Below, one piece after another: positions 7,833 to 63,463 of a stretch of DNA of 64,000 nt. Position 1 is the first letter of the stretch, and every line of letters starts with the position of its first letter. The DNA is taken from contig JAWWUD010000114.1 of NCBI GenBank assembly GCA_033964015.1, positions 124,001 through 188,000 on the forward strand, written 5' to 3'. Made by a program: the position numbers and the translations under genes. The notes under the pieces were generated by a model that was not told the DNA's origin, searched no databases, and worked only from the letters and a program-made list of their open reading frames with translations. Origin of the DNA: Scolanthus callimorphus (taxonomy: Eukaryota; Cnidaria; Anthozoa; Actiniaria; Edwardsiidae).

Positions 7833-8240
7833 CCGACGACCGGTTAGCGCAGTGGTAGAGCGCCGGCTTATGTTCGGGAGGTTGGGAGTTCAAAACCCTG
7901 GCCGGGCCAACACTCAGGGTCTTTTTCTAATAATTGAGGAGAAGGTGCTGCCTTTGCTCTAACATCTGCAAATGGTTAGACCTTCGCGTCTTCTCGGATA
8001 AGGACGTTAAACCGTAGGCCCCGTCTCTCACATACACTACACTAACCGGAACCAGAGGGACGTTAAAGAACCACTAGGACCGTCGGAAGTTGCCCAACCT
8101 CAGTGTCACAGAACTCACAATACTAACACACACTCATGTTTATAAAGCTGGTTCTTATAGGACGAGTTATCCATTAATGTAAAGCGCTTTGAGCCGCGAG
8201 GATAAAGCGCTATATAAGCACGTTATTATTATTATTATTA
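7833..8240 (+). mobile_element. tRNA-derived SINE
   Basis: The head carries an A-box-like TAGCGCAGTGGTAGAGCG (from about 7854) and a B-box-like GGGAGTTCAAAACC some 35 bp later. This is the internal RNA polymerase III promoter layout of a tRNA. A body of about 330 bp follows, ending in AAAGCGCTATATAAGCA and an (ATT)n tail. The element is preceded by a (TA)n run (7797-7819), and TAATCTT occurs on both sides (7818-7824, 8247-8253), a plausible degenerate target duplication. The ACGTTAAAGAACCACT segment in the body is shared with the minus-strand SINE near 12.3 kb. Confidence 0.75.
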
Positions 8241-8253
8241 TATATCTAATCTT

Positions 8254-9147
8254 ACATATTTAACCATTATCCTGCGCGAGATTGCGCAGAATATGGTCTG
8301 TACCGACTTTGTTATTCAGCACGTCGATACTGTAAAATCCCATCTGTTAGGCTAAGATTGTCCATTCAAACACCATGTTTAATTGTATTTTCAAATCAAA
8401 TAAGAACCTGTTTAAAGCTGGAATTCTAGGTTCAAAAACACCCAATCAAAAGATGTATCATTAATTTTGTGTTTTTTTTTTACGAGCTCAGATGACAGAT
8501 ATCGCAGGATTCATGTGTAAAAGACAGATACTGGAGTTTCTATGATCATATTTGGGCAGTGGATAATACCAAATGATAGTCATTAAAATGTTTGAGGAGT
8601 AGTTTGTCTTAGAATCGAAAATTAGTTCTCCCTCTTCGATTCATAGCTCAATATTACCTAGAACATTTACATTTCCCTACAGGTTAAAAAGAAATATAAT
8701 CAATCTTAGTATAAGGAGGTTCTTATCCAAAAAAGGAGTAGCAATCCACAATGTAGTATGACCCTATGACTAAGGCAGAGGAAGAACCATATTCTAATCC
8801 GTCTCCAGACTCAAGAGAGTTTTTTGGTTTAAAATACGAGGAGTACGTTGACAAATCTTGACATATCAAAGGGGCATCCTCTGGTGTTGGGGCTCCCTCA
8901 TTTCCTTCCCTTTACTCCTGTCTCGCCGCGCAACTCGATTTCGATCCCATGACGTCGATTTCGATCCCAAATGGTTGAGCCAGGGGATGCAACAGGATGG
9001 CGCACTTTCTCGGGTAATACATAAATTTGGAGTTCCTCGATAGGGACGACAATACGGATATTAAATAGAACAGCCCAATACCCGGCGATCGATTAATTTA
9101 ATAAGGAAGCAAGCCCTGACTGCATCAGTTTACTTCTTTCTTTTCAG
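8254..9147 (+). other. Intron of OVO copy A ending in its 3' splice site
   Basis: No coding feature is seen. It ends in a good acceptor: a pyrimidine-rich tract TTACTTCTTTCTTTTCAG finishing at 9147, directly before the long open reading frame of the OVO exon. A short duplication of TCGATTTCGATCCCA sits near 8935-8970. Confidence 0.65.
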
Positions 9148-10370
9148 ATAAGATACAGAACTCGGAGGATGAAGAAGAGAACGATGAAGAAAAGCAAGAA
9201 AGGTCACTTGAGGCGAATGAAGCAGTAGAGTCCAGTAGAGCAGTAGAGGACAAAACAGAGCAACCACCACGCAACGAAACTCTTGAGATAGAAACAAATG
9301 ATGAACGTGACACTACAGATACCCACACGAACGAGACAGAGAAACAAGACGAGAGAATCGAGAAATTAGACAATCGAAAAAGAGCATTTTCGGCGTTTAA
9401 AGAAAACAATGGCAGTGAAAAAAGTAAAATTTGGGTGGAGGAGAGGTTTCCTTCGGTACTGGAGAACAAACAGCCAATCCGAAACGTTTACCGGGACTAC
9501 TGGTGGGGCGGTCTAGCTAATAGTTACGAGGAACACAAACTGCCATGTCCGCCTAAACTCATTAGCAGTAATGTGCACCTTGAGAGGAACAGTATACCCA
9601 GCAAATTGCACTGCCCTCCCGAGCAACATATAAATCCAATGTTACATACATTTAATACCAACGGATTGCCCAACGTCAGCTATCATCATATGCTCGCAGA
9701 GGCCATGAAAGCTCGGCTGTATGCCGAAAGCGCAAGGGAAATTCCGTGCCATATTCGGATTCCCTCGGAAACCGCTCGAGACATTGCGCTGTACCCAGGA
9801 CTCGGCGCCTGTGGTCCCCATATTGGGAACCCGTTCTTTCTGCATGGGCACCCATTTGCAGGGACCCAGCCGATAGACAGATTAACGCCCCCTGGGAAGC
9901 CCCATATTGTGAAGAAAATGGAGATGGATGAAAAGGAGGAACATCATAAGTACAAGTGTGAAATATGTCACAGCTCCTTTTCGCTGCAGCGTCTGCTGAA
10001 CCGTCACATGAAGACGCACTCTTTCTATAAGCGATACCACTGCCAGTTCTGCGGGAAAGGCTTCAATGACACTTTTGACCTCAAGCGTCACATACGGACG
10101 CACACCGGTATTAAACCATTCAAGTGTGATCAATGTGACAAGTCTTTTACTCAGCGGTGTTCTCTCGAAGCGCATCTAACACGTGTACACAGCGTGGTCC
10201 ATAAGTTTGGCTTTCGAGAACGACGCGAAAAAATGTTCGTTTGCGAAGATTGTGGCCTGACATTCAGGGAGAGCCCGGAATTTATGAAGCACGTGCACGA
10301 GCTCCACCCAGAGACTGAGAAGATCATACGAGCGCGGCGGAACGGCTTCGTTAAAATGAAGACACCGTAG
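9148..10370 (+). CDS. ovo: OVO-like C2H2 zinc-finger factor, copy A, terminal exon (partial gene)
   Basis: This is a sequence-specific nuclear transcription factor of the OVO/OVOL family, which controls epithelial and germline programmes in animals. The exon follows the acceptor at 9147. Its first two bases complete a split codon (phase 1), then 406 codons run to TAG at 10368-10370. Order: an acidic, Glu/Asp-rich segment (first ~75 residues), a linker of unknown function, then four C2H2 fingers starting near exon residues 270, 298, 326 and 365. Diagnostic OVO features are the FNDTFDLKRHIRTHTG finger, the FTQRCSLEAHL finger, and the longer basic spacer (HKFGFRERREK) before finger 4. The long open frame can be read from GTG at 9435, but that is not a real start, because the frame stays open back to the splice site. 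The SNAG start exon was not found upstream and is probably outside the window. The finger block is almost identical to that of copy B. Confidence 0.93.
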
Positions 10371-11133: not shown

Positions 11134-11648
11134 AACCACGATTCCATATTCAACGCTGCCAAAAAATTGACTTGAATTTCTATTTTGTGTTCTTCTTGAG
11201 AACGAATATCCTCAAGACAAACGGTAACCTCTATTGATAACTATGGTAACTATTGCAAAGATCAATTTTAAAGGAGACAAATTGTGCTTTGCGTAAAAAG
11301 TGTGGGGGTTCCATAGTCCATCATCCAAATTTCTGTTACAACATGGCGGTTTCAACGGGGAATTTCTTCAGAAACCCATCCATGGGAAAACCTGAATTTC
11401 CCAAGACTCGAAAATCCGGAAAAACTATACCCTGCTTATCACAAGAAGCTCAAAACCCCTACCCTGTTCAGCGGACCATTTGAGAGCTCAGTTCGTTAAT
11501 CGCTCCGATGTTATCAATTTCACTGCTAGGGATTCAACTGATAAATTAGCGTTACCAGCTACCGGTAAAACTATCTAAAGCAGGTGCTTCGCTGTGGAAC
11601 AGCTTAGGGCCCGAATTGTGCCAAGCTGAATCCTTAAAAATCATTTAA

Positions 11649-11809
11649 GGTGACTCCACGAAAAGTCCAGGCGTATTTTCTGTAAATATGAATTCGGCTA
11701 TAACTTTTATAATATTCTTGTGACGGAATATTCTTCACACGAATATTATAAGAGTTATGACCAAATTTATAATTACAGAAAATGCGCTTGGACTTTTCGT
11801 GGAGTCACC
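11649..11809. mobile_element. Small TTAA-flanked foldback element
   Basis: It is a 161-bp near-perfect hairpin. GGTGACTCCACGAAAAGTCC at the left is answered by GGACTTTTCGTGGAGTCACC at the right, and pairing continues through most of the arms around a short AT-rich loop (near 11730). TTAA flanks both ends (11645-11648, 11810-11813). It is too short to code for anything. Confidence 0.82.
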
Positions 11810-11952
11810 TTAAATCGACACTCTTGTACTCACTCACTCTTGTACTCATTTTTTTTTTGTAAATGTATTATCATGTACATATAATGCACGGTCTTTATGA
11901 AAAACGGCTGCGCCTCGTGAGTCCACAGCATTTTGACCACTTTATTACGTCA

Positions 11953-12187: not shown

Positions 12188-12402
12188 TTTTGATTAAAAA
12201 AAAATATAAAAAAAACGTTTGTGCGACCGACTCCCAAACTCGCAGCTCGTAAGCTGAATTATGCTGGGTCTCAACGGCGCCACTGGCAGCCGTGCGGTCA
12301 TAAGCACAGACACTGAGGGTGGTCACTGCCAGAGGGTTTATTACGTCCCCAGTGGTTCTTTAACGTCCCCCCTGGAACTGGGAAGGGTAGAAAGGCGAGA
12401 TG

Positions 12403-12434
<32 letters not shown>

Positions 12435-12588
12435 TGAAACACAGTAGAACAAAGTTCAACTCACAATATGAACCAGTTTCGACCGAGACCCGAACAGAAA
12501 GAAAATTTCCTCTGTCCCGGCCAGGAGTCGAACCCGGATCACAGCGGTGAGAGACCCAACGCCGTAACGCTGGACCAACCGTGCTTCC
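12188..12588 (-). mobile_element. tRNA-derived SINE, minus strand
   Basis: Read on the minus strand, it starts with a tRNA-like head: A box TTGGTCCAGCG near 12575-12585 and B box GGGTTCGACTCC near 12525-12537. A body follows that includes ACGTTAAAGAACCACT (about 12352-12367), shared with the SINE at 7.8-8.2 kb. The 3' end runs to an A/T-rich tract at about 12190-12220. A LINE has inserted directly upstream of its head. Confidence 0.72.
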
Positions 12589-12959
12589 AATGTGTCCGAT
12601 GTTTTTTTATGTTTTGTGTTTGCACTCCCGAAGGAATGAAAAACAACAGGTACAGGGAGCACCAGCTCGCCAACTAAAGCTGAGGAATCGAACCTCACCT
12701 CCCTTAATTTCGGCCTTCGATTTGGCCACGCAGGGAACGGGTAAGCAACTGTGATCATGAACGCAGTCAAAACACTGCAATCCCGAAAATCAAAATACAA
12801 TAATCATTTTCTGCAATCATGAAATTTCACAATACAAACTAACAGACATAGTGAACAGGACAACATCTATACTACCATACTCACAAATAACTTGTTCCCA
12901 CGGAGGTACAGACGATACAAACAAATAACTAAAGTAAACAAGCAACAGACATTAACAAA

Positions 12960-13406
12960 GACATCCCAAGATAGCTCCCACTACAAACAAGAGCTACCAC
13001 GGGATGTCAATGAAAGTGTCAACTAGAAAAAAAGGGCATTAACAAAGGCATCCAAAGACAGCAGTACTCCTAATGAAAGGGACCGCTGCCACGGGATGCC
13101 AATGAAAGTGCATAAACAAACTTACAAACGAAGGTACCTGAAAATGAAACATGAAACGCGTTAGACACCAATGGGGAATCTAACTACTAGAAAAAAAGGG
13201 GTATGGCATTAACAAAAGCATCCAACAACAGCAGTACTCCTAATAAAAGGGACCGCTGCCACGGGATGCTAATGAAAGTGCATAAACAAACTTACAAACA
13301 TGAAAAACACATAGGAGTGAAATGAGGAGAGAAAAGAGAAATGCATTAACAAAGACATCCAATAACAGCAGTACACCAACTAAGGAGACCGCTGCTACGG
13401 GATGTC
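12960..13406 (-). repeat. Four tandem-related hairpins in the LINE 3' UTR
   Basis: Each unit starts with ATTAACAAA and ends with AATGAAAGTG, with a two-part stem between. The outer stems are GACATCCC/GGGATGTC (12960-13008), GGCATCC/GGATGCC (13047-13100), AGCATCC/GGATGCT (13217-13270) and GACATCC/GGATGTC (13354-13406). The inner stems are TAGCTC/GAGCTA in the first copy and CAGCAGT/ACCGCTG in the others. Where one arm differs between copies, the other arm changes to keep the pair. This favours a functional RNA fold, perhaps a reverse-transcriptase recognition site. Confidence 0.8.
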
Positions 13407-13460
13407 AATGAAAGTGCAAGAAAAAGAGGAAAAAGCGCGCGGGGGTACAATATAAGGGTG

Positions 13461-14366
13461 TTAAGTCGAAAATGAACGAGACATGACAATGTCATCACCA
13501 AAAACAGAAGCAATCTTACCGCTACAAGCCCAGGCACGACGAAAAAATCTTCGTCGGCTAGCAGATTGAAAACGCTTGAAATAGAGCGGCAAGTAAAAGG
13601 AGATGCGGCGAGTGATAGAGGTTTGCACATCAGCCGCACCCACAGGCTCCTGACGGAAACGATAATCATTTCTTGCCATCCATACTTGAAATTTAAGAAC
13701 ATTAAGGATGTAAGAAAAAACAGGAGGGACAACAAGACGTTCATCTTTGTTGAACCCAAAAAGCATATGACGGACTTGAATAGAAGGACCTAGAGGACAA
13801 ATACGGAAAAAGAGAGATTGAGCCCAGTTAAGCATGCTTTGCATAAGAGGACAATGGAAGAAAAGATGTTCCAAAGTCTCTGATGGAGCACCGCAAAAGC
13901 ATGCTGGGTCAATGTCCATATGAAAAGAAGAGACCAGACGATCGGCACAGTATAAAACACCATGCGCGATCTTCCACGAAAGGTCAATGACAGAACGATC
14001 AAGGGAAAAATGAAAACCTGGTCCCAAGTTTGGTCCCAGTAGAGAGGTCCGTAGGATGGCAAGAAATGAGTAACACAGTTCGGTGGATTATAACAGGCCG
14101 AAAGGAGGATGTCATAAGCATCCTTGGTGGTGACATTGTCAAGAAAAAGAGGGCCAAGTAATGAATCGCGAGGGATGACAAAGCGATTCAAAACTGGATC
14201 AAATTTACCTCCAATTAGTGTCCAGGATTCCAACATAAAACCATAAAAATCTGGTAAAAGATGGGAAGGATACAGAGCGGGGGTAGAAAAGACATCATGT
14301 AGCGACGATCCAAGGCAAGTCCTGAAATAATGGGCAAGGATGGAGCACCATTTGTTGGGGGCATGA
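13461..14366 (-). pseudogene. LINE reverse-transcriptase C-terminal region, frameshifted
   Basis: Minus-strand frames cover the region after the catalytic RT domain of a LINE. The conserved pattern includes LSWKIAHGVLY, then DPACFCGAPSETLEHLFFHC, a CxC-x7-HxxxxC zinc-binding motif typical of the zf-RVT region of Tx1/L1-type polyproteins. Upstream the other frame reads WCSILAHYFRTCLG and the FYGFMLESW-type motif. The two frames meet near 14030, implying one frameshift. The C-terminal stop is at 13461-13463. No catalytic RT or endonuclease domain is left, so the copy is inactive. Confidence 0.8.
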
Positions 14367-14379
14367 AATGTGTCCGATG

Positions 14380-14929
14380 TGTCCCTTTTCGTCTGGCCGC
14401 CTCAGGTTTTCAGTGGATCACTCCTACCAAATATTTATGGGAATACCAGGCTATGAGTAATAATCTTTATGTCTCCAAAACGCTTCCATAACCTTCTGTT
14501 TCCATGCCCATTTAATGATAACAAACCTTAATATTAATATCTAGTCTAACGCGTCGTGTAGATTTGCAGGTCTAAGACAGATATGCCGTTACAAGTCTCA
14601 TATCTTAGTGTGGCGCCGCCTAAAAGACTGAGCGGTGATCTAACGTCGGTTGTAAAATGATTATATTAGTATAACGGTACCATGAAAGCTCAAACAGATT
14701 AACGGACTCAAAGTAAAGCAAAAATGCATGCCCTCTAGTTATAAGGCCGATACTTATAAGAGAAGTCACCAAGGTAAATGATATAATCCAGTTTCATATC
14801 GATTTAACAGAACCACGAGAACAGACGGCTACCCAGTGTCAGGTTTGTTGACTGTACTGCAGTGTCGATTGCGTACCCTAGCGAATTTATCTCTTTCTGG
14901 TTAACCGGCCTGTTACAGCATTACGATTC
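14380..14929. other. Gene-free stretch
   Basis: Sequence to the right of the LINE insertion. No exon or bounded element is recognised. Confidence 0.4.
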
Positions 14930-16613: not shown

Positions 16614-16789
16614 CCAGAATGCCCCGTCCGAGGACAGGGCACTGGACGGATTCCAGATGTCCCAAGGGACAAAAGGAACCGACATTGCCCAGAGGACATT
16701 AGATAGCCTCTCCAGGAGTGCTGAGAAGGGGGATGCGACCCATGAAAATACACTGAAGTATATGGCGAGAAAATGGAGTGAAAAATTAT

Positions 16790-17870
16790 ATGGCGAGGTT
16801 CACCCGGTCGCCTATGTGCATAAAAATAGAGGGAAACATTTTACGGCGAGGTTCACCCAGTCGCTCACATGCACAGAAAATGGAGGGAAAATTTTACGGC
16901 GAGGTTCACCCAGTCGCCCACATGCGCAGAAGAAAATGGAGTGAAAACATTTACGGCGAGGCTCACCCAGTCGCCCATGTGCATAAAAATAGCGAAAAAT
17001 TATATGGCGAGGCTCACCCAGTCGCCCACATGCACAGAAAATGGAGTGAAAAAATTTACGGCGAGGCTCACCCAGTCGCCCACATGCACAGAAAATGGAG
17101 TGAAAAACAAAATATTACGGCGAGGTTCACCCAGTCGCCCATGTGCATAAAAATTGAGAGAAAAATTGTATGGCGAGGTTCACCCAGTCGCTCACATGCA
17201 CAGAAAATGGAGAGAAAATTTTACGGCGAGGTTCACCCAGTCGCCCACATGCGCAGAAGAAAATGAAGTGAAAAAATTTACGGCGAGGCTCACCCAGTCG
17301 CCCATGTGCATAAAAATAGAGAAAAATTATATGGCGAGGCTCACCCAGTCGCCCACATGCACAGAAAATGGAGTGAAAAAATTTATGGCGAGGCTCACCC
17401 AGTCGCCCACATGCACAGAAAATGGAGTGAAAAAAATTTACGGCGAGGCTCACCCAGTCGCCCACATGCACAGAAAATGGAGTGAAAAAATTTACGGCGA
17501 GGCTCACCCAGTCGCCCATGTGCATAAAAATAGAGAAAAATTATATGGCGAGGCTCACCCAGTCGCCCACATGCACAGAAAATGGAGTGAAAAAATTTAC
17601 GGCGAGGCTCACCCAGTCGCCCACATGCACAGAAAATGGAGTGAAAAATATATATATATAAATATTATGGCGAGGTTCATCCAGTCGCCCACATGCACAG
17701 AAAATGGAGTGAAAAAATTTACGGTGAGGTTCACCCAGTCGCCCATGTGCATAAAAATTGAGAGAAAAAATTATATGGCAAGGTTCACCCAGTCGCCCAC
17801 ATGCACAGAAAATGGAGTGAAAAAATTTACGGCGAGGTTCACCCAGTCGCCCATGTACATAAAGCAATGA
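16790..17870. repeat. Minisatellite of ~20 units, 51-57 bp, two unit types
   Basis: Every unit contains GGCGAGG(C/T)TCACCCAGTCGC. Type A continues CCACATGCACAGAAAATGG and type B continues CCATGTGCATAAAAAT. The order is roughly B-A-A repeated, with later blocks B-A-A-A. Type A' carries GCGCAGAAG in the third position of two blocks. Open frames of up to 238 codons exist in several frames on both strands only because the unit lacks stop codons; they are not evidence for a protein. Confidence 0.9.
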
Positions 17871-34500: not shown

Positions 34501-36213
34501 GTTTGGTTTCCTAAGCCATTAGCTAGAGGAAGAAAGGCAATTCATTGAGAAGTGCTCCACCGAGGAAATGCAAACACTTGATTCTCTATGGTGAGTTAGC
34601 GATGAAAACTTGGCATGAACGCCCTGTAATGTTAGTCTAGCTGTTAGATCTATTAGCACACCGATGAAGCCCGGCCCCGTCGCTGCTGTTAGTTACCGAA
34701 CAAACTCCAAAAGCTCTATTCTTCATAAAAGTGACATTGAATTGCCCTAGTATTAGCTCAGCCGAGCGGGCATTTTGCTGCTATAAAACACTATGTACGG
34801 CGAATTTAGCAGATTTTTGTCTAATAAGAGGAGCTTCATTCAGGACAACGCAAAATAAAGTAATAGGCCTGTAGTGATGTTTCAACTGACTCACATTGCT
34901 GAGATCTCTCTTGCGCGTTGCCATGGAATGCTAATCGGTTGCCGTTTATGAGGAAACAAAATGTCACAAGCTTATAAAATAATCATTTTCTAATGATTTT
35001 AATGTATGTTTTTTAGAACTTTGTCTTTGCTTTTAGCAAGTCTGCTTCTTAAGACAATTACGATTCTAGCAACATCCGCCCCGTGTAATCTCGAAAGTAC
35101 AAACAGCCTTCAAGGTCAAAATGACGATCTTTGTGCGCTTTCAAACCCCTACTTGAGAAACGGCAATTGAGGTTAGTTTGGCACGCATTAAGCGAAAAAG
35201 CGACTAACAAAAATAGACCGTTTTAAGAAAGAGCCCAAAACACGCTATATGGATGAGCACTTCAGTGTCTTGTAAGGGTGGATTAAATGCCAGCTACTTT
35301 CCTTGTGTCGGCAATCTCTTTCATTTTCCGTTTCTCAAGGACCGCTATTGGCCCTTTGTTTTCCGCCCCGGTTTGTAGAGGATGGATAGGAAATGTTCTC
35401 TTTTAGCCTTTATGCTTTCTTAAACCGCTAGAGCCGCTAAGTCTTCAGACCACCATCAAATAAATCTGAAATATTTTCCGAGGCGTCCCGTTTTGTTTTG
35501 TCATTTTGTCGATACCCTCTTCTTTATAGAAACGAGAATTTCCGTCTGAGGCCAAAACCGAATGTTCTTACAAGTAAAAAAATATGATAAGGAATGAAGG
35601 GACAATTCCTCAGATTGACTTGCTAGTGAATGCTCTGCAAGTTCGAAGATAAATTCACCCCGAAAGATGCGTAAAAGCTTTAAAACTGGCACAAAATAGT
35701 TTCGTTCATTTAAAAAAAAAGTGTAGACGTGGGAGAGAAGAACTTGGAATTCAGCCTGAGCTATTTTATCCTAGGATGTGCTTACATGCTTACCAAATCT
35801 CAGTCTCAACGTTCATAAAAGGATACTCTGATTAACGAACGAAGGCCTGACCTAAAACGTTTCAACTTTACTTTGGTATAGAGTATGTAGTCCACATTTA
35901 TTTCCTGCCGATTAGAAAATATAATCACTTTTGGTTTAAGTTTAAATGCTTGCGGATCAGCCATAAGATAAGAAACATTTTGTGTCCTACAATTTTACCA
36001 AGTAACACCATAGTTATAAAAGACTGTCTCCTCTACAAACTATAGACACAAAGAAAAGGCTCAAAATAAATTAATACGTTTCTGGTGCAACCTTAAGCCC
36101 GGGTTTCTCAACTGTATCGTATATATCTTATTTTTATTGAGCAATTACAATTTTTGTTATTAAAAATGTGCCTCCTCGACGAATAAGCCTAATCTCGTTC
36201 TCTTTTTCTGCAG
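28522..36213 (+). other. 7.7-kb intron of OVO copy B
   Basis: The donor is GTAACA and the acceptor CTCTTTTTCTGCAG. The intron is phase 1. No terminal-inverted-repeat element, SINE head or LINE fragment was recognised inside it by eye, although the surrounding 50 kb is full of them. It holds AT-rich sequence only, with a possible small hairpin AGCAGATA/TATCTGCT near 31062-31087. Confidence 0.7.
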
Positions 36214-37916
36214 TTACGAAAGATGATCTGCATCAGTCGCTGAATACTCCAACTCACATTGTAACAGAAAACAATGGTGCCGAATTCACGAACCCGTCAG
36301 AAACTCCTCTTGAATCAGAAGACGAAGAGGATACAAGTCGCCCTTCGGAAGAGGGAGAGATTCTAAACACAAAAGCTGAAGATATTGATGACTTTTTCCG
36401 ACGCTTGAAAGCACAAGTCTCTGCCAACGCTTTGGCGAACCATGAACTGCTCATTACAAATGCAGACGATGTGAAGGCTAACTCTGAGATAAGCCAGAAA
36501 GACTTTAATCCGATGGGTGTATCTACAAGGACAGAACCCGCGCTAGAAAGAACTCAGAGTCGGATAGAAATGTTCCAGGAAGAGGAGAAGGGGTCGCTGA
36601 ACGAAGAGGAAGAAATCGAAACGGCGCCAGCACCACATCCAGCGGCAATTTCAAGCAAGAGCTCGAAAACACTTGACGATACGTCGAATGTAAAGCAAAA
36701 AACGAAGCCAGTCATGGAAGGGACATCAGACCAGCCCGAAAAAAGGCGAGAGTACATGATATGGAGACTAGCAGAGGAAGTACCCGAGAGACAGGGCGAA
36801 TATAGGACTCGCGAGGAAAACCAGGACAATAAGGGACCTACAAGCCACGATCAATCAAGTGAGCAACCAATCAGCTGCAAGGATACTGCTTTTCGCGCGA
36901 CTTACGGACCGACAATCGATAGTCTGCGGCAACAAAGGGAAAATGCTTTTCACGAAGTAAAACATGTTGAACACAAAGACAAAACTCACGCTACACAGGA
37001 TTCATTTGGAGCTAAATCAGGACCTAGCTACGGATTCCTGCCAGGAAATGAGTACGCTCGTGTTAAAGCACATGATGTATGCAAACCAACTAGCCTGCAT
37101 CACACTGAGCTCATCCGGGCATTGGACCCATATTCGGGGGCTCTGGGTCAGACTAATTGTTATCGAACACCTGAAGGACTCCGCTCGCCAATATTTGCGA
37201 GCTCGCCTCCTGTAGACTTTAATCTGGGATTCCCTTCTGTTGCCAGACCTTTAGACCCAGAGGTCTTGCGTTGTTTTATGTACTGTAATGGGGCAACTAA
37301 AGATTTACCTTTGAAAAGCACCCCCTGGCCAAGCCCCACGGCCGAAGTGCCTTCCAGCCCTAGGGGCATAGGATGGGAAACATTTTTGTCTCAAAGTTAC
37401 GACGCATGCGCAACTCTCCCTGAGCACCTTCTTATGCGAGGTTACATCCCACAAAGCAGTATGGGTAGAGAAAGAAAAGACCCACAGGGCATGACGCCGA
37501 ACAGGTACAAATGTGGCCTGTGCAATGCATCATTTTCGCTGCAGCGTCTGCTGAACCGTCACATGAAGACGCACTCTTTCTACAAGCGATACCACTGCCA
37601 GTTCTGCGGGAAAGGCTTCAATGACACTTTTGACCTCAAGCGTCACATACGGACGCACACCGGTATCAAACCATTCAAGTGTGATCGATGTGACAAGTCT
37701 TTTACTCAGCGGTGTTCTCTCGAAGCGCATCTAACACGTGTACACAGCGTGGTCCATAAGTTTGGCTTCCGAGAACGACGCGAAAAAATGTTCGTGTGTG
37801 AAGACTGTGGGCTGACATTCAAGGAAAACCAATCAGAGTTTCGTCAGCATGTGGCATCTCACCACCCTGAAACTGATAAGATATTGCGACTGCGTAGAAA
37901 TGGCTTCCCGGCGTGA
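36214..37916 (+). CDS. ovo: OVO-like C2H2 zinc-finger factor, copy B, terminal exon
   Basis: Joined to the SNAG exon, this gives a 596-residue nuclear transcription factor. The spliced codon G|TT (Val) is followed by TKDDLHQ. Residues ~30-210 are acidic and Ser/Thr-rich, and the middle part (~210-455) is low in recognisable motifs. Four C2H2 fingers start at about 463, 491, 519 and 558. The core motifs are those of OVO: YHCQFCGKGFNDTFDLKRH, FKCDRCDKSFTQRCSLEAH, and finger 4 after the spacer KFGFRERREK. The stop is TGA at 37914. An in-frame ATG-less extension back to 36168 is intron sequence. Compared with copy A the N-terminal half is longer and unrelated by eye, whereas the finger block is nearly identical even at silent sites. 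Confidence 0.95.
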
Positions 37917-55284: not shown

Positions 55285-56815
55285 CGCCTCTGTCGATGAG
55301 GAAAAAACTCTGTCGATAGGAAAAAACTCCGTCGATAGGAAAAAACTCTGTCGATAGGAAAAAACTCCGTCGATAGGAAAAAACTCTGTCGATAGGAAAA
55401 AAAACTCCGTCGATAGGAAACTCTGTCGATATAGTCCAGTAAATCAAAAAATATTTTTACTAAAGGTTGGACAAAAATGGTAACAAAGGTTTCTCACCAG
55501 GAACATGTTTAGTAGTGTTCCGTTAGTACACAAAAAAAAGTCCACCCGAATCCACCGATGGCAACTTCCTTTTTTTGAGTTTTGAAAATTCCAGTCATTT
55601 TAGGCCGAAAAAGAGCTCAAAATGAAACAAAAGGTTTTTCTTCTTAATATTGTTCCTGACACTCTCTAGTATCACAGGAAGAAAATCAGCAAAAATGCGA
55701 AAAGTAAAAATAACCGAGTTTTTTTGGCTGCTTGTTTTAACCTTTGTTGTTCGCAGCACTGAATGAATTTTTTGAATGATGAATTTTATAGAGTGTAGCG
55801 CCGGCCCGGCTAATCTCTGAATGTTTCTGACTTCCAAGAATGATCATTTCACTTTATTTAGTAACTCCTTGGCAATAAAAATTGCTTCAAAAGACATTTT
55901 CTGGTATTTAGGGAACTCATATTTTCAAATCCCGTATGAAAGCGTGAAATAGCGTAAAAAATCGAAACTAAATGCCAAAAACCTAGATATTTATTTGTGA
56001 CGTGGCTAGCGATTTATAAATCAAGTCTGTGATTCAAACCATGGCCCATGGGGCAGAGAATATGGAAGTATTTTTGATGTACACACTATAGAATATCTTC
56101 TGGTTTGGAAGGCTCAAGTGCCGGCAAACTCGTGAATAACAATGGCGGTAACAATAGCGCTACAATAAGGAATTTTCAAAACTCAAAATAAGGAAGTTGC
56201 CATCATCGGTGGATTCGGGTGGACTTTTTCTTGTGTACTAACGGAACACTACTAAACATGTTCCTGGTGAGAAACCTTTGTTACCATTTTTGTCCAACCT
56301 TTCTCATTCATTTACTGGACTAATAGGAAAAAACTCTGAGTCGATAAGGAAAAAAACTCCGTCGATAGGAAAAAAAAACTCCGTCGATAGGAAAAAACTC
56401 CGTCGATAGGAAGAAACTCCGTCGATAGGAAAAAACTCTGTCGATAGGAAAAAAACTCTGTCGATAGGAAAAAGCTCTGTCGATGAGGAAAAAACTCTGT
56501 CGATAGGAAAAAACTCCGTCGATAGGAAAAAAACTCTGTCGATAGGAAAAAACTCTGTCGATGAGGAAAAAACTCTGTCGATAGGAAAAAACTCTGTCAA
56601 TAGGAAAAAACTCTGTCGATGAGGAAAAAACTCTGTCGATAGGAAAAAAACTCTGTCGATGGGGAAAACTGATATGAAAAAAACTCTGTCGATGGGAAAA
56701 AAACTCTGTCGATGAGGAAAAAACTCTGGCGTTAGGAAAAAACTCTGGCGATGAGGAAAAAACTCTGTCGATGGGGAAAAAGCTCTGGCGATGAGGAAAA
56801 AACTCTGTCGAAGAC
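55285..56815. repeat. Minisatellite of ~20-bp GTCGATAGGAAAAAACTCT units, in two blocks
   Basis: The left block is at 55285-55431 and the right block at 56323-56815. Units vary between GATAGG, GATGAGG and GATGGGG and between ACTCTG and ACTCCG. Together there are more than 30 copies. Open frames of up to 186 codons on the minus strand arise from the stop-free unit and are not genes. Confidence 0.9.
55432..56322. mobile_element. TAGTCCAGT-family TIR element inserted in the minisatellite
   Basis: Inverted repeats of about 155 bp (55432-55592, 56166-56322) share TAGTCCAGTAAAT, AAAGGTTGGACAAAAATGGT, TTTCTCACCAGGAACATG, AACGGAACACTA in opposite orientation, and GGTGGATTCGGGTGGACTTT. ATA flanks both ends (55429-55431, 56323-56325). 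Removing it rejoins GTCGATAGG, an intact array unit. It is related by its termini and 3-bp duplication to the 3.5-kb element at 41 kb. Confidence 0.85.
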
Positions 56816-58135: not shown

Positions 58136-60252
58136 CAGTGGGTTGCCCAGTTCCGTGCCAGTACCAGTTCCGTGCCACGTAAAAACTAATCTCTCTTTTC
58201 ACCATGAGTATTGCGAATTTGAACAAACTAAGAATACATAAACAAAGTGTGACTATTTGACTTTTAGAAAGCGAAATAACGGGTTGTATCACCAAAGGGT
58301 TTGTTAAGAAAGTCCGATTACTTAAAAGCAGGTCTCGTTCTCATTACTAAAATTTGCAGTTTTCACTGCACAGTGAACTGACCTCGTCTCGAAAGTGAAG
58401 TGTAAAAGTCACATATCTTGTACGAAATACTCCAATTTTCATACAGTTACTTAAAAAAGGGTCAAAGCGACGTTATCTGATATTTTTTTCTCGCTTGATG
58501 CAGTGGTTTTAATCTTCTGTTGCCTTTAGTTTTATGTGCGATTTTTTAGTAGTGGTACCAGTTCCGTGCCACCTCGCGCAAGTTCTCTTGTTTCTCCTGT
58601 TTACACAAATTTGAGGTCACAGAAAGAGTATATTTGTGTGAGTTCTAAATGACATGATTTCTTTATCAATCAGTATTCAATAAGGTTTGATTTTATTAAG
58701 GTTACTGAGAACCTTCGCGCACGTTGTTCGAAAAAAAAATCATACACGTTCTATGTCAACCTATATATCGTTGGAAAGCTTATAGAATGGACTAGCGGGC
58801 CATGGCAAAAAGAAGTCACTTATTGATACCTGTAATTTTTTTAAAGCATTGATTAAATATTTTGGTGTGCTATTTTCACGAGCTAACGCCGCCGAACTGC
58901 TGGACCATGACTCCCAAGTAACATATTGTTTTAATCCTTAAAGGTGTTTCTCAAAAACTGTGTCTGCGATTTTTTAAATTTTGTTTAGTTCAACAGTTAT
59001 GAATTTTTAAAATTTTTAGAGCGTGAAAATTCTACAAAATTTGACCTTCGAAATTTAAAAGTTCGATAACTTTTGAGCAAAGCAAAATTTTAAAAAACGC
59101 AGACACGGTTTTCGAGAAACACCTTTAAGGATTAAAACAATGTGTTACTTGGGAGTCAAGGTCTAGCAGTTCGTCAGCGTTATCTCTTGAAACTCTTACA
59201 CCCGAATTTTTAATAAAACCTTAAAAAAATTTCTAATTATGAAAAAAATATTTCTTTTTGCCATAGTTCGCTAGTCCATTCTATAAGCTTTCCAACGATA
59301 TATAGGTTGATATGTTTTGGTTAAACTAAGGACGTGTATGATTTTTTTTTCGAACACGTGCGCGAAGGTTCTCAGTAACCTTAAGCGACAATTATAGTTT
59401 TTAAGACGAAACTCAGTTATTTGTTTAAATATAAACCCTCTCTTTCATTCAATCGTGACGTCGATGAAAATTACGTATCACTATAATTGAGAGGCTGGAT
59501 TTTTTAGGCCAGGATTTCAAAACATTTGCAGCTTATTTTACCAAACAAAAACTGTTTGGTAAAGATAAGTATTTTAAAAGGGTTGGATAAAAATAAAAAA
59601 TATTAAACAGCTTCAGAATTATCCGCCAGTGATCCATGCCAGAGTGAGTTATTTTCCGTGAGCGTTTCTTTCTGTCAGTATTTTACGTTCACGCGTGTTC
59701 TTCCAGGGAAGTGTGAGATTCTGCTAAAGATTGCATCCCACATTCTCTTTCTTCTCGCCAAAACATCATTTCTGGCGCAATTATATGTTACAATAAAGGG
59801 ACGTTTGATACTCTTTACTATTTACTAATTGACATAAGTTTGAATGATATTTTTGTCGACAGACAAGCAAAACTCGTAAATGGTTTATTTTAAAGAATTC
59901 AACTGCCGTATTGTGAAGTTAAAATTCTGTAAATAGAATAAAAAAGCAACCAGAAGGCAAGGATATGATTTTTGTCTCAGTTATTACTTAAAATGATTCT
60001 TAAATCATAAGCAAATTGCGAAGTTGTAAGTGGCACGGAACTGGTACGCGGTGGCTCGGAACTGGTAACGCGAGTTGCTCTGAAAAATATGCCTTTAACT
60101 CGGAAAAATTTAAAATGTTGGAGTCAGTTCCTTGTTGATTATAACAATTGATAAATTTGGATTATTCAAGTAAAAATAATGTAAAATGGCGTCACAGCTA
60201 AAAAGATAGAGTAATTTAAAGTTGAAGTGGCACGGAACTGGGCACCCTACTG
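58136..60252. mobile_element. 2.1-kb Tc1/mariner-like element with CCAGTTCCGTGCCA repeats
   Basis: CAGTGGGTTGCCCAGTTCCG at the left and CGGAACTGGGCACCCTACTG at the right are inverted ends, flanked by TA (58134-58135, 60253-60254). CCAGTTCCGTGCCA or close forms recur inside both ends (about 58150, 58167, 58558 on the +, and 60033, 60055, 60229 on the -). No transposase frame remains. It hosts a nested TTAA foldback. Confidence 0.8.
58700..59380. mobile_element. Large TTAA foldback nested in the Tc1-like element
   Basis: The arms of about 310 bp start GGTTACTGAGAACCTTCGCG and end CGCGAAGGTTCTCAGTAACC. They include CGTTGGAAAGCTTATAGAAT and GAAACACCTTTAAGGATTAA with their complements. TTAA flanks both sides (58696-58699, 59381-59384). 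The terminal GGTTAC resembles the MITE at 7.0 kb. Confidence 0.87.
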
Positions 60253-61500: not shown

Positions 61501-61503
61501 ATA

Positions 61504-61671
61504 AACAACTTACTAACCTCGTTTGCTCGGGCAGTACGGAAAAATTCCAGACTTCGGGCTGAAATTTCTGCTTTACGAACCTCGCCCAGAGGCTCGGTCC
61601 GTAAAGCAGAAATTTCATCCCTCAGTCTGGAATTTTTCCGTACTGCCCTCGCGCTCGGTTAGTAAGTAGTT
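61504..61671. mobile_element. Foldback MITE
   Basis: ACTTACTAACCTCG, GGGCAGTACGGAAAAATTCC, AGACTTCGGGCTGAAATTTC and TGCTTTACG are mirrored by CGTAAAGCA, GAAATTTCATC, GGAATTTTTCCGTACTGCCC and CGGTTAGTAAGT. The loop is about 25 bp. The arms are nearly complete complements. Confidence 0.82.
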
Positions 61672-61739
61672 AATATTGCCCGCGCGCGCACGCTCTAAAA
61701 ACCAATCAGAACGCAGAATTCATTACCGTACCCCCTAGG

Positions 61740-63308: not shown

Positions 63309-63463
63309 AATAAGCCTAGTTGGAGTTTAAATTTTGTGTTTAGTGTGCGTGCGATTTTAGTCCAAATTTTGACTTCTTTTGTTCAAAGAAAAGCTAAAGA
63401 AAAGATTCCGACTAAAATTGCATGCGCACTGAACACAAAATCTAAACTCCAACTAGGCTTATT
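63309..63463. mobile_element. Foldback element
   Basis: AATAAGCCTAGTTGGAGTTT, TTTTGTGTTTAGTG and GCGATTTTAGTC are mirrored by GACTAAAATTGC, GCACTGAACACAAAAT and AAACTCCAACTAGGCTTATT. The arms are about 55 bp. Confidence 0.8.

Follow-up and report, generated by a model that had tools for sequence, protein, structure and literature searches.

Structured RNA in the 3' UTR of LINE elements is of a known kind, and four described systems can be set beside the locus reported here. In stringent-type LINEs (UnaL2, ZfL2-1, ZfL2-2 and SART1) a stem-loop lies in the 3' tail, is read mainly at the loop (PMC4176376) and has a bulge some base pairs from it (PMC5135761). For the zebrafish elements ZfL2-1 and ZfL2-2, PMC4176376 reports that ORF2 reads the 3' stem-loop mainly at its loop and that the stem is exchangeable. 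The hairpin of plant L1 elements and monocot SINEs lies at the 3' end, shows compensatory changes in its stem and has conserved loop and flank nucleotides (PMC3747384), and human L1 carries a conserved stem-loop within the last 50 bp of its 3' UTR, with a stem of 8-10 bp (PMC5135761). The I-element hairpin and other localisation hairpins bound by Egl provide a case in which a retrotransposon RNA signal is recognised by a protein, there a host transport factor (PMC6114517). For L1, PMC4176376 stated in 2014 that the way in which LINE proteins select their own transcript (cis preference) was unknown.

The locus described here shares with the stringent-type LINEs and human L1 a stem-loop RNA in a LINE 3' UTR and, with the plant L1 and monocot SINE hairpin, compensatory changes in the stem. 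It differs in having four hairpins (h4, h3, h2 and h1 in the LINE sense), all of them at least 345 nt from the terminus, with a variable loop, an identical lower stem and 26 paired columns per hairpin, as against the 8-10-bp stem of human L1. Neither the 3'-terminal location nor the conserved apical loop of the stringent type is found, since the last hairpin lies 345 nt before the insertion junction and the loop has 9 nt in h1 and 6 nt in h2-h4, with a different sequence in h1; the bulge near the loop is present in the folds of h2-h4 and absent from h1. No four-copy array is seen in the available part of PMC6114517. This four-copy, loop-variable, mismatch-invariant form, situated away from the terminus, therefore matches none of the four precedents compared, as far as the accessible portions of those papers describe them. 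Within the open-licence literature on LINE 3' UTR structure and on RNA localisation and export, no title or abstract beginning among the matches listed presents a tandem covarying hairpin array in a LINE 3' UTR.

The array lies in a 5'-truncated, apparently frameshifted LINE insertion of 1764 bp on the minus strand (positions 12603-14366) of the window, which is the whole 64,000-nt stretch of DNA analysed. The insertion is flanked by an exact 14-nt target-site duplication, at 14367-14380 on the LINE 5' side and at 12589-12602 on the LINE 3' side, which a plus-strand scan finds only at these two places in the 64 kb. Because these exact repeats bound the insert, the element is identified as a 5'-truncated LINE, of which pieces from the C-terminal part of the ORF and 858 nt of 3' UTR are left. 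Along with the target-site duplication and the 5' truncation, a protein domain identifies the element as a LINE: the minus-strand frame 13464-14087 (208 codons) carries a zf-RVT domain (PF13966) at 13839-13982, spanning its residues 36-83 (30.2 bits, cutoff 27.5; E 7.1e-7), and closes at a TAA stop codon at 13461-13463. A second minus-strand frame, 13793-14401, resembles the upstream part of such a protein on visual inspection alone and gave no match in Pfam; it is the occurrence of these two frames that makes the copy appear frameshifted. No reverse transcriptase domain was matched in a Pfam scan of the two frames, which is accounted for by the truncation of the copy at 14366 and does not exclude LINE family membership. 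The coding remnant, about 300 codons with one domain, is too little for clade placement. The sequence-only reading had placed the hairpins after a LINE stop codon, and the zf-RVT domain, the stop codon and the target-site duplications confirm that they lie in a LINE 3' UTR; it had quoted the plus strand, whereas the LINE and the relevant RNA are on the minus strand.

Read in the LINE sense, the 3' UTR contains four minus-strand stem-loops of 73-78 nt each, the first of them starting 42 nt past the stop codon. They are h4 (13342-13418, with its 5' arm at 13418-13387 and its 3' arm at 13374-13342), h3 (13205-13282; arms 13282-13251 and 13237-13205), h2 (13035-13112; arms 13112-13081 and 13067-13035) and h1 (12948-13020; arms 13020-12989 and 12979-12948), and they are followed by the remaining 345 nt of the 3' UTR (12603-12947, minus strand), whose A-rich tail abuts the insertion junction. 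The outer stems quoted earlier are all present, GACATCC/GGATGTC in h4 and h1, GGCATCC/GGATGCC in h2 and AGCATCC/GGATGCT in h3, and the structured units are larger than first noted, with 32 aligned stem columns per hairpin. Columns 1-12 form a lower stem, columns 13-19 are the 7-bp stem noted earlier, and columns 20-32 form an inner stem. The lower stem contains 10 contiguous columns identical in all four copies on each arm, the longest run identical across the four copies being 10 nt on either arm, and it has the same mismatches in 4/4 copies: C.A at column 5 and U.U at columns 7, 8, 11 and 12. Folded on the sense strand with a few flanking bases, each hairpin was more stable than all of its dinucleotide shuffles (0/200 as good for any; z -8.1 for h4, -5.3 for h3, -6.2 for h2 and -8.0 for h1), and every one of them is recovered when the 858-nt 3' UTR is folded in one piece (z -12.1 against 20 shuffles).

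The two arms of these hairpins have changed in step. In a structural alignment made by hand, 26 of the 32 columns hold a standard pair in two or more copies, and the six columns left out are the five mismatched ones and column 20, which is unpaired in three of the four copies (C.U, with C-G in h1). Eleven of the 26 paired columns vary, and eight of these (1, 2, 13, 14, 23, 25, 29 and 30) have two-sided changes, column 1, unpaired in h2 and h3, being the weakest such case; of the 44 cells that the eleven variable columns comprise, 40 still pair, and column 22 is unpaired in h2 and h1. Two compensating base-pair changes had been claimed from the letters: the two-sided changes are real and their number is larger, 8/26 paired columns in the structural alignment and 6/26 in a MAFFT alignment. 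The compensatory change claimed for the inner stem is also seen, as C-G to U-A (sense) in h1. The further claim that the fold and not the sequence is retained holds for the helices, where pairing is kept through sequence change, but is too strong for the units as a whole, in which the mismatched columns and the 10 contiguous lower-stem columns are identical in 4/4 copies.

Shuffling and dealing gave figures that rest on four related copies within a single dead element, two of which (h2 and h3) are close duplicates, and that should not be taken as clean probabilities: with the 3' letters dealt out anew among the copies of the structural alignment, 40 paired cells were reached in 1/20,000 trials, and in the MAFFT alignment, where four h1 cells fall in a gap, the observed percentage paired and the observed covariation score were each reached by 0/500 shuffles and the observed number of two-sided pairs by 2/500. 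Sliding the partner by 1-3 columns in the MAFFT alignment left 0 two-sided pairs, and the number of further pair types there was no higher than in shuffles (322/500 reach it). When substitutions were placed at random, as many pairs were kept at frequencies of 0.0057 from h2 to h4, 0.0024 from h2 to h1, 0.0028 from h4 to h1, 0.0051 from h3 to h4 and 0.0125 from h1 to h2, these comparisons between older copies being informative and not independent; the young duplicate pair, h2 to h3, is uninformative (0.198, not significant). Finally, the 16 combinations of 5' and 3' arms were folded in the sense orientation, and the native combination was the best in its row and column for 4/4 hairpins, with a mean of -35.1 kcal/mol against -25.7 kcal/mol for the 12 chimeras; h3 and h2 beat the best chimera in their rows by only 0.3 kcal/mol.

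The sequence between the hairpins bears on how the array arose. The hairpins are separated by spacers of 59, 92 and 14 nt. Across 95 nt, units h2 and h3 agree in 95% of positions, and their spacers have in common an exact 17-nt block adjoining the 5' side of the hairpin and a second exact block, of 13 nt, at its 3' side or close to it; other shared spacer blocks are only 7-11 nt. Since flank blocks are common to the units, hairpin-plus-flank units were probably duplicated in tandem, after which the spacers would have diverged until little of them could be aligned, unlike the hairpins. This difference in conservation suggests a constraint on the hairpins besides the covariation, with the reservation that the spacers differ in length and part of their divergence may be deletion or insertion and not free substitution. 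A mobile hairpin or MITE was considered as a source of the copies and rejected, as the flanks common to the units are those of tandem duplication and no copy is found elsewhere in the window.

Both strands of the array can fold, and the sense strand folds better. Sense and antisense energies are -35.5 and -26.4 kcal/mol for h1, -36.6 and -28.7 for h2, -32.5 and -26.7 for h3, and -37.8 and -27.1 for h4, so that the LINE-sense strand is the more stable in 4/4 hairpins, by 5.8-10.7 kcal/mol. By z-score the sense strand leads in 3/4, h1 being slightly better antisense (-8.27 vs -7.95), and for each hairpin on the antisense strand 0/200 dinucleotide shuffles were as good (z -4.0 to -8.3). A covariance model of the four hairpins, itself built on the sense strand, scores 81-104 bits in sense against 26-38 bits in antisense. 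Swapping arms on the antisense strand again gave the native pairing as the best in 4/4 columns and 3/4 rows, which likely follows from Watson-Crick symmetry. Among the 32 columns, G.U occurs in the sense strand in 7 and A.C in 1 (one-sided binomial 0.035), which argues against a DNA-level inverted repeat, expected to show both alike; one column has A-U in h4, G-U in h3 and G-C in h2 and h1. The idea of a DNA palindrome is weakened by the strand preference. From the stability of the sense strand and the excess of G.U, the LINE transcript is very likely the selected molecule, and the covariation, the folding of native arms, the sense preference and the poorly conserved spacers together make it very likely that an RNA fold in that transcript was under selection.

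As to function, our leading interpretation, to which we give a probability of about 45%, is that an RNA-binding protein, most probably the RNP protein of the element itself, docked on the four covarying sense-strand stem-loops as on an array of sites. This protein would read the lower stem, which is identical in all four copies and carries the C.A and tandem U.U mismatches, the remaining helices would need only to stay paired, the four copies would raise occupancy and in this way tag the transcript for the element's own RNP (cis preference), and reverse transcription would be initiated elsewhere, in the A-rich tail. As this copy is truncated and apparently frameshifted, its active ancestors would have been the ones under selection. 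A protein-read motif is suggested by the unchanging mismatched columns beside helices that change in step, a contrast that is not significant alone (5/5 mismatched against 15/26 paired columns invariant, Fisher 0.09) and that common ancestry could explain. By the established mechanism of target-primed reverse transcription, the insertion junction marks the start of copying, which would put that start in the A-rich tail, with 345 nt between the junction and h1. It is this A-rich terminus far from the hairpins, together with the variable loop and the invariant lower stem, that leads us to prefer a docking array. A more specific form, unlikely on present evidence, holds that this LINE family carries the four-copy array as a built-in cis-preference or packaging signal, read via the invariant U.U-mismatched lower stem, by which the transcript is tagged for the element's own RNP regardless of where reverse transcription starts. 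Repeated covarying stems away from the start of reverse transcription would constitute a compact cis element amenable to deletion, counting and transplantation, making the question of cis preference directly testable. Repeats inside one element also allow covariation to be seen without other genomes.

The nearest rival to the element's own protein, and a close one, is a host transport or export factor. The stems would then recruit a host protein that binds double-stranded RNA or stem-loops, for export, germ-cell transport or stability, as Egl does with the I-element, and we regard this as possible, if on the doubtful side. Several long stems with non-Watson-Crick columns in one 3' UTR fit transport and export elements. 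Against this, HeT-A RNA binds Egl weakly if at all, according to PMC6114517. Recognition by the reverse transcriptase would be closer to the stringent-type LINEs, with ORF2 binding the stem-loops and several copies serving as several landing sites; deletion of the stem-loop abolishes retrotransposition of ZfL2-1 and ZfL2-2 (PMC4176376), and compensatory mutations are reported for the 3'-end hairpin of plant L1 (PMC3747384). We nevertheless consider it improbable here, because the A-rich tail that closes the insertion lies 345 nt farther 3', though binding may act at a distance, and because the apical loop, the part read by the zebrafish LINE proteins, differs between h1 and h2-h4, as do the bulges near it, which h1 lacks. 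The earlier suggestion of multiple landing sites for the reverse transcriptase is accordingly weakened in so far as initiation sites were meant, the A-rich end being downstream of the last hairpin and the apical loop not conserved.

Two further explanations have little probability next to a docking array. The length and shape of the hairpins would suit small-RNA precursors, whether pre-miRNA-like or sources of hairpin siRNAs cut by Drosha or Dicer, and h2 has a weak match to mir-3170 (22.4 bits, E 0.17, gathering score 98), the best to any microRNA family, and h3 to mir-1000 (18.5 bits, E 1.1, gathering score 50). Such precursors are very improbable: the whole window has no match at gathering score, the two-sided changes are spread along the stem, no run longer than the 10 nt given above is identical in the four copies on either arm, and cutting its own transcript would presumably cost the element. 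The explanation to which we give the least weight involves no RNA function at all and has the arms of a duplicated inverted repeat kept alike by DNA-level processes, namely template switching or conversion between arms. Arm-to-arm copying also yields two-sided changes, the units are indeed duplicates with common flanks, and the antisense strand, too, folds better than all its shuffles; but homogenisation of the arms should have erased the five mismatched columns, which are kept in 4/4 copies, and gives no reason for G.U to outnumber A.C (7 vs 1 columns).

Searches for relatives of the array covered the window and several collections. In the window, blastn found no other copies, and the covariance model gave 8 matches with E values of 10 or less, which fall on the two strands of the four known hairpins and nowhere else. 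Among viral contigs, a 17-base pattern matched 9 stretches, to which blastn of 12901-13460 gave matches of 25 nt or less, taken as chance, and a 26-base pattern matched 0; a 20-base pattern matched 2 bacterial stretches among prokaryote contigs, taken as chance from their source. A peptide pattern matched 2 viral and 18 prokaryote contig stretches, 0 of which encoded a relative. Plasmids searched by protein and solved structures searched by sequence gave no match. With Rfam 15 (4227 models) there were 0 matches at gathering score in the window, so a ribozyme or other known RNA is not supported, and ARAGORN found 0 tRNA genes in the window.

Beyond the hairpins, the last 198 nt of the LINE have a fold only slightly more stable than those of their shuffles (z -1.76, 14/200 as good), and the last 345 nt taken with three bases of h1 give z -3.75 with 0/100 shuffles as good. 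On the minus strand, a 6-bp hairpin with a UUCG tetraloop at 12623-12638, shortly before the A-rich tail, is found in all three folds made (of the last 198, 348 and 858 nt). A T-arm-like hairpin at 12681-12697 (minus strand, TTCGATT loop) is followed by D-arm-like sequence at 12665-12680, the reverse of the order in tRNA. The T-arm-like hairpin, in its form with 4 bp and a 7-nt loop, appears when the last 348 or 858 nt are folded to minimum energy and is missing from the corresponding fold of the last 198 nt. A tRNA elbow at the LINE 3' end was considered and set aside, as the D-arm-like hairpin and the enclosing stem appear in none of the three folds. Adjoining the 3' target-site duplication is a tRNA-like SINE head with a GGGTTCGACTCC box at 12500-12587 (minus strand), and a weak mascRNA match lies at 12514-12568 (20.4 bits, below the gathering score of 42.5). 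The stretch 12348-12438 has a 74% match at 7983-8078.

Elsewhere in the window, the long plus-strand open frames 9120-10367 and 36141-37913 share a stretch of 89% identity (9975-10349 vs 37530-37907), and the frame 9435-10367 encodes C2H2 zinc fingers, which point to an animal host; the two long frames are probably duplicated zinc-finger genes. A tandem array with a 54-bp unit at 16768-17863 can be read as an open repetitive frame on either strand. Two further arrays, with a 19-20-bp unit, lie at 55288-55431 and 56323-56811, and between them are related inverted stretches at 55462-55592 and 56169-56302 (96%). Imperfect palindromes at 58696-59384, 11643-11815, 61501-61674 and 63309-63463 match themselves on the opposite strand at 80-87% and are probably foldback or MITE-type elements.
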